Source: Bacteroidota bacterium (GTDB lineage Bacteria; Bacteroidota; Bacteroidia; B-17B0; Aurantibacillaceae). Taken from it: DNA of 55,049 nucleotides. Positions 33,621-48,728 of this stretch are shown here, piece after piece. The notes under the pieces were generated by a model. It was not told where the DNA came from and searched no databases. It was given only the letters and a program-made list of their open reading frames with translations. The number at the start of each line of letters is the position of its first letter. The stretch's first letter is position 1. The position numbers and the translations under genes are program-made. Location of the stretch: positions 1-55,049 of the forward strand of contig JANYEQ010000072.1 of NCBI GenBank assembly GCA_025363015.1, given 5' to 3'.

Positions 33621-35564
33621 TTATTTGCCTAAATTTTTTAATTGATTGTATATTATTTTTAAATCGTTTTCTATTTTATAATCTTTAGCGTAGTTTAAAA
33701 ACGATTTGTTTAGTTGTTCGTGGCTTGTAACGTTGGCAGATGGTGTTAGTACGGATGGGCGAATACTTGGTAAATCTTTACGAGGATTTTTACCGTAGCC
33801 CACCCAAGAGTAATAACCAAACAATACTCTAAAACAATTTGAAATAAAACTTAGTTTGTTTTTTTGTACTAAAATAAACAACCAAAAAAACAATAATAAA
33901 AAACTACTCACGCAAATATCTAAGAGACGTTTTTTGCGCTTATTTTCGGGTCTGCCAACATTATTAACATCAATTACATATAAATCTCCAGCGGTATCAA
34001 TACTATTACTTCCAATAATACTATAGCTTTCGGGCGGTGCAATTTTAAATTCAATGCCTTTAGTAACAAGAGTTACCATTTTAGCAATAATATCTTGTGA
34101 TGAGATATCTTTAGCACAAAAAATAATTTCGTTTAATTGATGTATATCAATGGCTTCATCTACTTGATGAAAATGTCCAATGTAATTTTCGTTTTTTACC
34201 CCATTACCTTCACTACTAATAAAACCAACAAATTCAGGATTTAAGTGTGTTTGTTTTAGTAAATTGTTTACCCGATTAAACTCTACTTCGCTGCCAATAA
34301 TGGCTAATCGGGTAGTAATGTTTAAGCTCCCAATTTTAAATTTTTTAATGTTTAAAGTATGATATAAAAACCGAGTAGCTAAGTAAATAAACAAAGTACC
34401 CATTGCACCTATTAAAATTAATGCACGCGAAAAACGATAATATTCGGGCAGTAATGAGTATAAAATTAAAATAAATGCTGTACCTGCTAATACACCTCTT
34501 ATTAATTTACCAAATTTTAAAGGCACATCATAACCGCCACTCAGAAAGGTAAAAAACATCCAAACTAAGGTATAAAGCGGAAAAAATAAATTTAAAATTT
34601 GCTTTGAATAAAAGTTTGGATACAGTTTAAAATTTGTTTCGTAAATGGTTTTACAAGCATACAAACCCACTAATATTAAGCAAAAATCAATTGTTGGAAA
34701 AAACCACTGTTTAATAAAACGCGCTATAATTGCCATTAAGGCTCTTAAATAAATGGCAATATGAATTAAAAAATTAAATGTACGTGCATTACTTTGGCTA
34801 AAATGTTTTTTAGCAAAAATGGCCATTGCCTTATAAAATACAATAACGTAATTAACACTACTTTTTTTTGTACTCTCGCCTTTATAATGAATAATACTGC
34901 TATTGGCAAAATAATAATTTTTATAGCCAGCTTGTGTTATGCGATAACTAAGGTCAATATCTTCGCCATACATAAAAAAGGTTTCATCTAATAAACCTAC
35001 TTTATTTATAGTTTCTTTTTGCATTAGCATAAAAGCACCACTTAAAACGGCAACTTGATGGTTTTTATTTTTATCTAAATAGGTTAAATGATACTGCCCA
35101 AATTTTTTAGAGTGAGGAAATAATTTTGAAAGCCCAAAAATTTTATAAAAAGCCACTGCTGGTGTGGGTAAACCACGCTTACTTTCGGGTAAAAAAAGGC
35201 CTTTACCATCAAGCATTTTTATGCCTAAGCCACCAATTGTGGCATCGGCATCCATAAATGCCAATGTTTTTTCAAAAGTATCTTCTTGTACTACGGTATC
35301 TGGATTTAATAATAAAATATACTTACCTGTTGCTAATTTTATAGCTTGGTTATTTGCTACGGCAAAGCCAGTATTTACTGTGTTAACAATTAATTTTACT
35401 TGTGGAAACTTTTGTTTTATAAGGGCTACAGAGCCATCTACCGAATTATTATCAACTACAAATACCTCGGCATTAATTTGTTTTAATGATTTATATACAG
35501 AATACAAGCACTGTTCAATAAAGTGCTTTACATTGTAATTAACTATAATTATAGACAGTTGCAG
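33621..35564 (-). CDS. GT2 glycosyltransferase fused to a sugar-transferase-like membrane region; CTG start likely
   Basis: 647 aa from CTG at 35564. Residues 1-240 are a WbbL-like rhamnosyltransferase-type GT2 domain: QLSIIIVNYNVKHFIEQCLY, the metal-binding NPDTV, DETFFMYGEDIDLSYR with the catalytic ED, and SIIHYKGES. Four or five membrane helices, a Rossmann-like region (TRLAIIGSEVEFNRV) and a short tail with RKKRLLDICVSSFLLLFFW follow. This layout recalls polyprenyl-phosphate sugar transferases, but the catalytic C-terminus is reduced. The first ATG/GTG/TTG (TTG at 35507) would delete the first beta strand of the GT2 fold. CTG gives MQLSIIIVNYNV, the normal family start. It probably builds cell-surface glycan. 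Confidence 0.8.
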   Translation of the reverse strand: MQLSIIIVNYNVKHFIEQCLYSVYKSLKQINAEVFVVDNNSVDGSVALIKQKFPQVKLIVNTVNTGFAVANNQAIKLATGKYILLLNPDTVVQEDTFEKTLAFMDADATIGGLGIKMLDGKGLFLPESKRGLPTPAVAFYKIFGLSKLFPHSKKFGQYHLTYLDKNKNHQVAVLSGAFMLMQKETINKVGLLDETFFMYGEDIDLSYRITQAGYKNYYFANSSIIHYKGESTKKSSVNYVIVFYKAMAIFAKKHFSQSNARTFNFLIHIAIYLRALMAIIARFIKQWFFPTIDFCLILVGLYACKTIYETNFKLYPNFYSKQILNLFFPLYTLVWMFFTFLSGGYDVPLKFGKLIRGVLAGTAFILILYSLLPEYYRFSRALILIGAMGTLFIYLATRFLYHTLNIKKFKIGSLNITTRLAIIGSEVEFNRVNNLLKQTHLNPEFVGFISSEGNGVKNENYIGHFHQVDEAIDIHQLNEIIFCAKDISSQDIIAKMVTLVTKGIEFKIAPPESYSIIGSNSIDTAGDLYVIDVNNVGRPENKRKKRLLDICVSSFLLLFFWLFILVQKNKLSFISNCFRVLFGYYSWVGYGKNPRKDLPSIRPSVLTPSANVTSHEQLNKSFLNYAKDYKIENDLKIIYNQLKNLGK

Positions 35565-35697: not shown

Positions 35698-35771
35698 GGT
35701 CCCATAGCTCAACTGGATAGAGCAACGGTTTTCTAAACCGTAGGTCCTTGGTTCGAGCCCAAGTGGGACTA
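35698..35771 (+). tRNA. tRNA-Arg (anticodon UCU)
   Basis: 74 nt cloverleaf. The acceptor stem is GGTCCCA with TGGGACT (a G-U first pair), with T8-A9 and discriminator A35771. The anticodon stem is ACGGT/ACCGT with loop TTTCTAA, giving anticodon TCT at 35732-35734. The T-arm is CTTGG-TTCGAGC-CCAAG. CCA is not encoded. It reads AGA, the preferred Arg codon class in such AT-rich genomes. It is followed at once by an intrinsic terminator. Confidence 0.95.
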
Positions 35772-35774
35772 CAG

Positions 35775-35805
35775 AAGAGGGTCATGAAAATAATCCTCTT
35801 TTTTT
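35775..35805 (+). terminator. Intrinsic terminator after tRNA-Arg
   Basis: The stem AAGAGG/CCTCTT with a 14-nt loop is followed by five further T. It lies 4 nt after the tRNA. Confidence 0.75.
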
Positions 35806-35987
35806 ATGTCTCAAATTCAATGCTTCAGAGTGTTCGGATGGTTCGATCTTTTTTGTTTTACAGAACAGGTTTCTTAAACGGATATAATAAGGATTAAGTT
35901 TAATTTTGTAATAGTGACATTTAGGAGATTCGAACCCGGTTGCATTAATCACATTTTAGTAAATTTACTTTCGATAAACACACCATT
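35806..35987. other. Junction segment between tRNA-Arg and the Crp/Fnr gene
   Basis: 182 bp without a convincing gene. Two T-loop-like words occur: GGTTCGATC at about 35839 on the plus strand, and the complement of GGGTTCGAATC at 35927-35937. They could be worn tRNA 3' ends left by integration next to the tRNA, but neither forms a full T-arm and neither matches the tRNA-Arg end exactly. Confidence 0.3.
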
Positions 35988-36569
35988 TTGGACTCAGATT
36001 TACTCTTAAAGGAATTACAAGCTAAACATGATTTCCCTACGGAGGAATTTCCCAGGCTGATAGATCTTTTTGAAGAACGCAGTTTTAAAAAGAACGAAAT
36101 CATTTTTCAATCTGGAGATGTTGTAAAAGAAACTTATTTCGTTTTAAAAGGTATTCTTCGCCAGTATTATATTAGCCCTGATGGTGCTGACCGTACCATT
36201 TATTTTGCAGAAGAAGGTGCATGGGCAGGCGAGCTGATGAGTTTTTTGCACTACACACCAACCAATTTAAACCTACAGGCCTTAGAGGATACCAATGTTA
36301 TTTTTTTGAACAGAAAAAACTGGGAAGTTGCAATGACCACTATCCCGGCATTTACGATGTATCATTTAAAGAATCATCAACGCATTATAGTAAAACTAAA
36401 AGAAGAAGTGGGTAAAGCGGTAAATGAAACGCCTGATGAAAAGTACCGGAGACTCGTTAAAGAAAAACCACATCTGTTGCAACGTTTGCCGCAATATCAA
36501 ATAGCAACTTATTTGGGAGTAACTCCGGAAACCTTAAGCCGCATCCGAAAAAGAAATACAATGCTGTAA
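35988..36569 (+). CDS. Crp/Fnr family transcriptional regulator
   Basis: 193 aa from a TTG start. The cyclic-nucleotide-binding-like beta roll (about 20-120: KNEIIFQSGDVVKETYFVLKG is split as KNEIIFQSGDVV and KETYFVLKG; then GEL in the capping region) is followed by a long helix and a winged helix (about 150-193). The recognition helix TPETLSRIRKR has the E-T-x-S-R pattern that in FNR reads TTGAT. There is no N-terminal cysteine cluster, so it is not an Fe-S sensor; the ligand is unknown. Leu codons include several CTG and CTC, while neighbours use TTA, so the gene looks acquired. It sits 2 bp before a perfect FNR-type box and upstream of the cupin gene. Confidence 0.88.
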   Translation: MDSDLLLKELQAKHDFPTEEFPRLIDLFEERSFKKNEIIFQSGDVVKETYFVLKGILRQYYISPDGADRTIYFAEEGAWAGELMSFLHYTPTNLNLQALEDTNVIFLNRKNWEVAMTTIPAFTMYHLKNHQRIIVKLKEEVGKAVNETPDEKYRRLVKEKPHLLQRLPQYQIATYLGVTPETLSRIRKRNTML

Positions 36570-36577
36570 AGTGTTTC

Positions 36578-36591
36578 TTGATTCAAATCAA
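36578..36591 (+). promoter_or_regulatory. FNR/Crp-type operator TTGAT-N4-ATCAA
   Basis: TTGATTCAAATCAA is a perfect dyad that matches the FNR consensus, extended to seven paired bases on each side (TCTTGAT/ATCAAGA). It lies in the gap between the regulator and the cupin gene. Its centre (36584.5) is about 40-45 bp before the start expected from the -7-like TTACTTTG at 36614-36621, the class II activator position. The regulator's recognition helix has the residues that read this half-site, so it is probably its own operator. Confidence 0.75.
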
Positions 36592-36613
36592 GATTTATGG
36601 GATTTTGCTTGTG

Positions 36614-36621
36614 TTACTTTG
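36614..36621 (+). promoter_or_regulatory. -7-like element for the cupin gene
   Basis: TTACTTTG matches TAnnTTTG except at one base and lies 27 bp before the ATG at 36649. A weak -7 without a clear -33 TTTG is typical of promoters that depend on an activator bound near -41.5, where the FNR-type box is. Confidence 0.45.
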
Positions 36622-36648
36622 CTGCACAAAACAATTAAAAACAAAAAC

Positions 36649-37080
36649 ATGAAATCAAAAGAAATAATAAAATTTGCCGGAATGGAAATCCATTATTGCC
36701 TGGAAGCAAAGGATACCAATCAACAATTAACCATGTTTAAATGTGTAATTGCTTCAGGAGCTAAAATTGCTGCACCGCATTATCATGAGAACTTTGATGA
36801 AACTATTTACGGATTAAAAGGTATTGTTACTTATACTGTTGATGGGAAAACAATGGAAATTGGCCCTGGCGATTATTTATTCATTCCTCGTGGTGCTGTT
36901 CATGGTTTTGCAAATAAAACAGATGAAACTATTGAGTTTTTAGCATACGCAAGTCCCGGAGTTTTTGGACCTGATTATTTCCATGATATTGCATCGGTCA
37001 TCAATGCAAAAGGTCCTCCTGATATGGCCAAGTTAAAAGAAGTTATGCTTAGCCATGGTTTAGTTCCTGTCGCGGGATAA
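36649..37080 (+). CDS. Single-domain cupin protein
   Basis: 143 aa from the ATG at 36649; a longer GTG frame from 36571 would cover the operator and is rejected. The cupin motif 1 is PHYHENFDETIYGLKG, with His, His and Glu as metal ligands, and motif 2 is PGDYLFIPRGAVHGF with the last His. One beta barrel, no signal peptide. It probably binds a metal and acts as a small dioxygenase, isomerase or ligand sensor; quercetinase-like cupins are the nearest type. It is controlled, by inference, by the adjacent Crp/Fnr protein. Composition is less AT-biased than neighbours. Confidence 0.82.
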   Translation: MKSKEIIKFAGMEIHYCLEAKDTNQQLTMFKCVIASGAKIAAPHYHENFDETIYGLKGIVTYTVDGKTMEIGPGDYLFIPRGAVHGFANKTDETIEFLAYASPGVFGPDYFHDIASVINAKGPPDMAKLKEVMLSHGLVPVAG

Positions 37081-37221
37081 TTTCTTTGCATTTTCAGCAG
37101 CTTTTATGCGTTCCCATAATTCGGGTTCATGTTCTAAAACGCCCATAAAGTCGAGAATTAACTCTAAATGTTCGTTAAATTTATTCGCAGTTTCACCGCT
37201 TGGCACCACTGTTAAAAACAT
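37060..37221 (-). pseudogene. 53-codon orphan frame, probably the 5' part of a native gene cut by the islet
   Basis: The ATG at 37221 begins MFLTVVPSGETANKFNEHLE, then LILDFMGVLEHEPELWERIK, and the frame ends at a TAA at 37060-37062 inside the antisense of the cupin C-terminus. Leu codons are mostly TTA, as in native genes, up to about 37081. The last residues only exist because the cupin sequence is read backwards. I do not recognise the family. It looks like the intact start of a native protein whose 3' end was replaced when the cupin segment arrived. Confidence 0.4.
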
Positions 37222-37260
37222 ATATACCCCTAAAATAGTTATTTTAGGGGTATATTTTTT
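37222..37260 (+). terminator. Perfect 16-bp hairpin with 2-nt loop and T run
   Basis: ATATACCCCTAAAATA pairs fully with TATTTTAGGGGTATAT around a GT loop (37238-37239) and is followed by TTTTT. It fits a terminator for the Crp/cupin transcript, although 140 bp after the cupin stop. The very long perfect stem next to a truncated frame could alternatively be the end of a mobile element or an operator for that frame. Confidence 0.65.
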
Positions 37261-48254: not shown

Positions 48255-48728
48255 TTTTAATTGTTGATTGATGATTGATGATTGTTGATTATCCATAACT
48301 TTAATTCTATTTTTTAATTTTATTGTTAAGATTGTACATTGCTGTTTCTCTTGATTTAGAGAAAATAGAAGTTAAGTCATGAGCTTCTTTTATTGAAAAT
48401 TCTACTTCACTAATTGGTAATAAATTAGAACAAGATATAAATTCTAACCAAAATTCCGATTCGTAACACTCTTCTATTTCAATGCTTAATTTTGATATAA
48501 ATACTGGCTTAGTTTGAGCGTGATTTGCAGCTCTATAATTTGTAGCTACCGATGTTGACGAACGAATTAATTTCCCTTTAATATGATTTCCTATATAAAC
48601 ATTTGGCAATTTTTCTGTAAATTTTATTACAGAAAGTGCAAATGCTTTTGTTCTTATATATAAACCTTCTGAAGTCATTTTTAAATTCAATTAATCATCA
48701 ATCTTCATTCAATCAACCATCTTCAATA
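48255..48728. mobile_element. Putative insertion unit carrying a four-helix-bundle gene
   Basis: A 0.47-kb unit is delimited by imperfect inverted flanks. The left one is built of TGATTGATGATTGATGATTG (about 48264-48283) and the right of AATCATCAATCTTCATTCAATC (split: AATCATCAATC, TTCATTCAATC; about 48693-48714). It interrupts two Fe-S genes that are usually adjacent. There is no transposase. The flank ends are approximate. Confidence 0.45.
48307..48678 (-). CDS. Four-helix-bundle protein (23S rRNA intervening-sequence / S23 family)
   Basis: 123 aa from the ATG at 48678; a TTG four codons earlier is open. SEGLYIRTKAFALSVIKFTE, KGKLIRSSTSVATNYRAANH, ISKLSIEIEECYESEFWLEF and LTSIFSKSRETA give the four helices. 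The RSSTSVATNYRAAN block is the signature of this family, first found inside 23S rRNA intervening sequences and related to Avd of diversity-generating retroelements. Most copies are basic, bind nucleic acid and move as small passengers. No rRNA or reverse transcriptase is nearby. Confidence 0.88.
   Translation of the reverse strand: MTSEGLYIRTKAFALSVIKFTEKLPNVYIGNHIKGKLIRSSTSVATNYRAANHAQTKPVFISKLSIEIEECYESEFWLEFISCSNLLPISEVEFSIKEAHDLTSIFSKSRETAMYNLNNKIKK

Follow-up and report, generated by a model that had tools for sequence, protein, structure and literature searches.

Regulator, box and cupin behind tRNA-Arg

The window, by which we mean the whole stretch of 55,049 nucleotides that was analysed, contains a tRNA-Arg gene followed by genes for a Crp/Fnr-type regulator and a cupin, with an FNR-type box between the last two (Table 1). 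A preliminary description of this DNA had placed tRNA-Arg(UCU) and its terminator ahead of the gene pair; ARAGORN identified the tRNA, and a hairpin resembling a terminator was read by eye 3' of it. A short open reading frame on the minus strand (37078-37221), which starts MFLTVVPSGETANKFNEH, is convergent with the cupin gene. Elsewhere in the window (48310-48690, minus strand) lies a gene for a member of the 23S rRNA-intervening sequence protein family (PF05635), outside rRNA.

Table 1. Features of the regulator-cupin locus, in window coordinates
Feature	Position	Strand	Basis or remark
tRNA-Arg, anticodon UCU	35698..35772	+	ARAGORN
Wing-less Crp/Fnr regulator, 193 aa, TTG start	35988..36569	+	Pfam, orthologue alignment, structure model
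Codons of ETLSR (residues 181-185), recognition helix	36528..36542	+	Alignment; last helix of model
Predicted operator TCTTGATTCAAATCAAGA, near-palindrome	36576..36593	.	Half-sites invariant in 4/4 orthologous pairs
TACTTTGC, presumed -7 element, TAnnTTGY form	36615..36622	+	Invariant in 4/4, 23 nt from box
Predicted transcription start	36627	+	By arithmetic, with TA at -12
Cupin, 143 aa, presumed target	36649..37080	+	Pfam Cupin_2, 64.5 bits; start likely 36649

The regulator matches the Pfam profile cNMP_binding (PF00027) at 59.5 bits, against a cut-off of 27.5, as expected of the N-terminal domain of a Crp/Fnr protein. The match to HTH_Crp_2 reaches 20.6 bits, against a cut-off of 27, and covers only positions 20-42 of the 70 in the profile, short of a complete winged domain. 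An AlphaFold model (mean pLDDT 89.1, pTM 0.82) ends with the recognition helix, residues 180-191; hence, the regulator has no wing. At most 21 residues (median 10) follow residue 184 in 174 of 176 relatives, the other two not being aligned there. We conclude that the regulator is a member of a wing-less branch of the Crp/Fnr superfamily. Its TTG start aligns with the ATG of three orthologues, and Foldseek matched the model to Thermus CRP, 3dn7 of Cytophaga, GlxR, FNR and CprK.

The ETLSR helix and the absence of Fe-S cysteines, both part of the preliminary description, were borne out by the alignment: FNR has four such cysteines, the regulator contains no cysteine of any kind, and none is common to the four orthologues. 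The phosphate-binding Arg82-Ser83 of CRP is replaced by T92-N93, if, as we assume, these residues pair in the two numberings. Because the place of Arg82 is taken by threonine in this protein and, in 80 of 87 relatives, by Ser, Ala or Gly, sensing of cAMP in the usual manner appears unlikely. H126 and H130, considered as heme ligands, are common to the four orthologues and not to the family, and we set them aside.

The predicted operator begins after six bases from the regulator stop codon, and its core, TTGATTCAAATCAA (TTGAT-N4-ATCAA), occupies positions 36578-36591. If the TA of TACTTTGC lies at -12, the centre of the box falls at -42.5, in agreement with the earlier proposal of a perfect FNR-type box centred about 40-45 bp before the expected start. 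Class II activator sites, as established for FNR and CRP, centre near -41.5, and a predicted centre near -42 would be the position of such an activator. The exact box alone is unremarkable, since the 3.3-Mb genome from which the window comes has 18 such sites and the reversed control 16; a second exact box in the window, at 34137, falls within a glycosyltransferase gene, and we regard it as a chance occurrence. The sigma-A promoters of Bacteroidota have the element TAnnTTTG; a study of Flavobacterium psychrophilum describes, in addition, a TAnnTTGY element at -12 to -5, attributed there to a probable alternative sigma factor (PMC9723704). TACTTTGC fits the TAnnTTGY form and not plain TAnnTTTG.

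The cupin has the residues expected of a metal-binding cupin: His44, His46, Glu51 and His85, which we take to be the His, His, Glu and His metal ligands of the two cupin motifs, are invariant in all four orthologues. Quercetinases head the solved chains that match it by profile. Among the closest is quercetin 2,3-dioxygenase YxaG (1y3t, E 3.9e-18), which differs in its length of 337 residues, of which only residues 217-298 match the cupin. Plasmid relatives of the cupin (37-45 % identity, three records) adjoin other regulators or an ester cyclase, and no Crp gene stands beside them in the gene tables of these records, which are incomplete.

Conservation of the unit and a shared operator geometry

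We found orthologous pairs at three other loci: in a relative, G032 (58 % identity for the regulator and 77 % for the cupin), on CAIRZD010000413.1 (L045; 77 and 71 %) and on CAIXBT010000110.1 (L046; 73 and 73 %). At all four cupin loci, that of the window included, a regulator orthologue lies upstream and the box lies between, in different surroundings. In each, the box closely follows the regulator stop codon and TACTTTGC comes exactly 23 nt later. In an ungapped, anchored alignment of the four loci, TTTCTTGAT, ATCAA and TTACTTTGC do not change, whereas all four spacer columns vary, as do all but one of the 22 columns between the box and TTACTTTGC. Thus, as far as sequence can establish it, sensor, predicted operator and target form a conserved unit of fixed geometry, as the preliminary description had proposed; absence of the box from orthologous pairs, which it had named as evidence against its reading, was not seen at any of the four. 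In G032, an extra gene lies between promoter and cupin; its product (117 aa) has no Pfam match but shares 48 % identity with a DUF3764 protein (Pfam) that is the target at L234, another member of the family. The distribution of the pair is sporadic. It is present in one of 59 relatives (G032), besides the genome of the window, and a search of 395 genomes of the class with the cupin profile (E <= 1e-15) matched only the latter, G032 evidently being outside that sample.

The wing-less branch is widespread: of 390 genomes of the class, 261 have a match to the regulator profile (E <= 1e-12), and one relative has as many as 26 (E <= 0.001). We assembled 87 branch genes from relatives, taken regardless of boxes, and a second set of 89 from the class, 176 in total; G118:C4, a listed gene with an internal stop, was kept outside. 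When the 87 paralogues were first examined for adjoining exact TTGAT boxes, only three were present downstream and none upstream. The family pattern emerged when palindromes of any sequence were searched according to how far they lie from the -7 box. For 14-mer palindromes downstream on the same strand, there is a peak where the centre precedes the TA of TAnnTTTG by 29 or 30 nt, with 7 and 5 occurrences in the first set (background mean 0.06, maximum 1) and 3 and 1 in the second (background mean 0.08, maximum 2). In neither set was a comparable peak present in the upstream or reverse-strand profiles.

Expressed as TTRA-N6-TYAA downstream of the gene and centred 29 or 30 nt before TAnnTTTG/TAnnTTGY, the predicted operator accompanies 18 and 11 of the 176 genes, respectively. 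At the other centres from 18 to 59, the same motif occurs once each at 40 and 49, twice each at 51 and 52, four times at 53 and nowhere else. The 29 operator-bearing genes are related, falling into 18 clusters at 50 % identity. The remaining 147 have no adjoining operator by this pattern, among them 28 of the 39 genes with an ETxSR helix; therefore, many paralogues must act elsewhere or on sites that the pattern missed. A first promoter pattern with TAnnTTTG gave 20 hits in 60 genomes against none for reversed controls, but did not capture the window itself, where TACTTTGC stands instead. In each of three genomes (G103, G138 and G230) there are between four and six CTTAA-N6-TTAA promoters, and several of these conform to CTTAATCTAGRTTAAG; some regulators of such a kind may therefore have several targets. 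We conclude that the locus in the window is one instance of a family-wide design.

Recognition helices, operators and targets

Among the 29 operator-bearing genes, TTGA stands in both halves of the operator in 11 of 11 cases with an ETxSR helix, against 2 of 18 with other helices (Fisher 2.3e-6, a post hoc comparison). ESLSR goes with one TTAA and one TTGA half in four of five genes, and EFLSK with TTAA in one or both halves in nine of ten. Weighting by the 18 clusters gives 8.5 ETxSR with double TTGA and 0 without, and 1.5 and 8, respectively, for the others. For an out-of-sample test, we scanned 385 genomes for promoters with either double TTGA or double TTAA and inspected the gene in front. 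The double-TTGA promoter gave 135 hits against 16 for reversed controls and the double-TTAA promoter 90 against about 70 (our own counts of the lists), so that hits to the latter pattern, unless beside a regulator gene, are mostly due to chance. We read 28 double-TTGA loci: a Crp match lies directly upstream in 10 and no short Crp in 18. One of the 10 was already in the first set (L330) and one was dropped (L331, a 19-bit match), leaving eight new operators, seven behind ETxSR and one behind ERLSR (background 22 %, P 1.7e-4). Thirty double-TTAA loci were fetched and gave 28 rows (L367 and L377 gave none); two had known EFLSK regulators, two had new ones, EYLSD and EFLST, and the rest had no Crp, L376 having been dropped because its helix is not readable. 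Seven further TTGAT boxes behind short Crp genes, outside the 176, all go with ETxSR, one of them 395 bases away; these loci had been seen before the helix rule was framed. Judged from these alignments and counts, recognition helix and predicted operator are associated in the wing-less branch. In relatives, winged Crp/Fnr genes whose helices read A-K-E-[ST]-L-V-R likewise have TTGAT boxes nearby at promoter distance (L143, L150, L153 and L135/L149).

The genome of the window encodes two paralogues with ESLSR helices, on contigs C33 and C72. Their candidate sites, read by eye, overlap the stop codon: TCTTAACTTAAGTCATCG on C33, with an imperfect right half, and TCTTAACTTAAATCAACG on C72. Both TCTTAAC... 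sites are similar to the TTAA/TTGA operators seen with other ESLSR genes, and their -7 regions have no TAnnTTTG. TTTG follows the 14-mer after 27 nt on C72 and after 19 nt on C33, where a second TTTG was read by eye after 27 nt; the distance in the window is 26. The only protein of this genome above the HTH_Crp_2 cut-off has the helix RQSVTT, not E..SR. The window regulator is therefore the only ETxSR protein found in its genome.

We scanned 21 of the 29 targets in Pfam. These comprise three pirins, two YceI proteins, two NAD(P)H-binding/NmrA proteins, two O-methyltransferases, one Cupin_2 protein (L233, only 23 % identical to the cupin of the window), one each of carboxymuconolactone decarboxylase, YiaAB, DUF3764, DUF998, DUF2834, DUF4260, amidohydrolase and copper monooxygenase, and three without a match. 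Six more targets resemble pirins by eye. Small membrane proteins of YiaAB type (L223 by Pfam, L222, L136, L142, L144 and L146 by eye) recur in relatives behind FNR-type boxes, with or without an adjoining Crp gene. In G051 (L022, 4806-7595), a truncated branch Crp gene, of which the first 80 residues remain, about 44 % identical to the window regulator, lies directly before paaA, paaB and paaC of phenylacetate degradation. The family names of the targets, together with this truncated relative, suggest aromatic or quinone-like signals. For the window, an aromatic, phenolic or quinone-like signal, with a cupin that may act on such a compound, is a guess from family names.

Origin, alternative readings and proposed mechanism

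The preliminary description had attributed odd leucine codons to both genes. Against 243 genes from 370 kb of the same genome, this held for the regulator, an outlier in total codon usage (1 of 397 same-length pieces scores as low) with TTA for 8 of its 24 leucines (5 of 397 as low), but not for the cupin, in which TTA encodes an ordinary 6 of 8 leucines and total usage is borderline at most (29 of 593 pieces as low). Compared with the window alone, total codon use looked extreme for both (0 of 100 pieces for the regulator and 0 of 155 for the cupin), and the leucines of the cupin are normal.

By our own reading of the lists, the same glycosyltransferase gene lies within 600 bases of tRNA-Arg in 33 of 40 genomes of the genus, a count that includes three genomes with the tRNA in the opposite orientation. 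This flank is common to the genus; the opposite flank has several arrangements in the 29 relatives read (two of these stretches are short, 698 and 2006 bases, and the tRNA is reversed in one). None of the 29 has the regulator-cupin pair there, and orthologues at the same tRNA in all relatives had been named beforehand as counter-evidence to an islet. Partial tRNA copies (positions 23-75, 85-89 % identity) lie 3' of tRNA-Arg in L117 and L124, about 400 and 530 bases downstream, with an open reading frame of 85-86 aa in between. The variable 3' side of the tRNA, these partial copies, the foreign codon usage of the regulator and the sporadic distribution of the pair would fit arrival on an element with an integrase of its own, for which tRNA-Arg served as the attachment site. 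However, the window has neither a second copy of the tRNA-Arg end nor, among its 44 proteins scanned in Pfam, an integrase or transposase, which are the marks of a tRNA-integrated island; the three other orthologous pairs adjoin no tRNA in the stretches read, the nearest being 1.6 kb away (L045); and the codon usage of the cupin is at most borderline. We consider such a tRNA-targeted genomic islet rather doubtful. The tRNA-Arg islet of the preliminary description is thus not supported in the strict sense of tRNA integration, and we make no case for a classical tRNA island; acquisition of the pair is likely.

The box might instead be a site of another, global Fnr-like regulator, with the neighbouring gene a bystander. 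Such a regulator could account for the same-distance TTGAT boxes near winged Crp/Fnr genes (L135/L149, L143, L150, L153) and for box-bearing promoters without an adjoining Crp (e.g. L144 and L146), but not for the joint presence of regulator, box and cupin at four of four loci with different surroundings, nor for the co-variation of helix type and operator across the family; moreover, the RQSVTT helix belongs to the only protein of this genome over the HTH_Crp_2 cut-off. We regard a bystander role as very unlikely. An equally improbable reading makes the regulator a repressor at the box, released by its signal. The core of the box ends 23 nt before the -7 element, such that bound protein could block polymerase; yet class II activators classically have their site centred near -42, and the single distance kept in 29 family operators is a demand of polymerase contact, whereas repression tolerates many positions.

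We consider it highly probable, for the reading as a whole, that the locus is a one-regulator, one-target activation module with its operator behind the regulator gene. In this activation module, a small ligand would settle in the cyclic-nucleotide-binding-type pocket of a 193-aa sensor of the Crp/Fnr type. The sensor is presumably dimeric, and its DNA-binding domain ends directly behind the recognition helix. ETLSR would then read both TTGA half-sites in the operator, which begins after six bases from the stop codon of the regulator gene; centred near -42, the regulator would contact RNA polymerase and turn on the cupin from the promoter that carries the TACTTTGC -7 element. The operator would not switch the regulator gene, which is located upstream of it. 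Acquisition of the pair probably took place beside the tRNA. Related modules would keep to this geometry, and their operators would change with the recognition helix.

E. coli FNR reads TTGAT-N4-ATCAA through an E..SR helix, and its class II box centres near -41.5. The window combines the same helix type and site, with a predicted centre near -42, a likeness in sequence; it differs from FNR in having no Fe-S cysteines and no wing, one neighbouring target and a Bacteroidota-type -7 element. The closest solved chain by profile, 3dn7 (a cyclic nucleotide binding regulatory protein of Cytophaga hutchinsonii, E 2.7e-32), also ends in sequence right after the helix and gives a TM of 0.84 of the target over its resolved part, but has the helix EYLSE; we know of no operator or target of 3dn7. 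CprK of Desulfitobacterium (PMC2610375) is likewise a Crp/Fnr activator with a 5-N4-5 box, TTAAT-N4-ATTAA, and has an aromatic ligand; it belongs to another phylum, and its C-terminal extension contacts bases. In the same text, Val192 of CprK, which corresponds to Glu209 of FNR, is linked to T in place of C, and this is prior art for the Glu part of the helix rule. Unlike in CprK, as far as that text goes, residues 182 (T versus S, A or F) and 185 (R versus K) also track the half-site in the wing-less branch. CrpR1 of Riemerella (PMC13277301) is another short Bacteroidota Crp protein, studied for virulence, and the part of that text seen gives no operator. A literature search by title and start of abstract yielded no paper on the module, to which coverage our claim of novelty is limited, and the literature searched gave no signal or operator for the wing-less branch.

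As a tentative extension, wing-less Crp/Fnr proteins of Bacteroidota may form a large set of single-target activators that travel with their operators. They would share one geometry, with the operator behind the regulator stop and centred at about -42, and a half-site readable from residues 181, 182 and 185; paralogues would be insulated within one cell, and the ligands sensed in their pockets would be various aromatic or quinone-like compounds, those handled by the adjoining pirin, cupin, YceI or NmrA protein. Genes matching the regulator profile are common in the class; hence, a fixed operator position and a helix rule would let targets be predicted from sequence. The helix-operator rule would make specificity and cross-talk directly testable, and the wing-less modules would serve in Bacteroidota as a set of activators insulated from one another. 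The cupin pair of the window, a real feature that mostly matches the preliminary description, is a compact test case, and its main value is as an instance of an operator-carrying, single-target, wing-less family.
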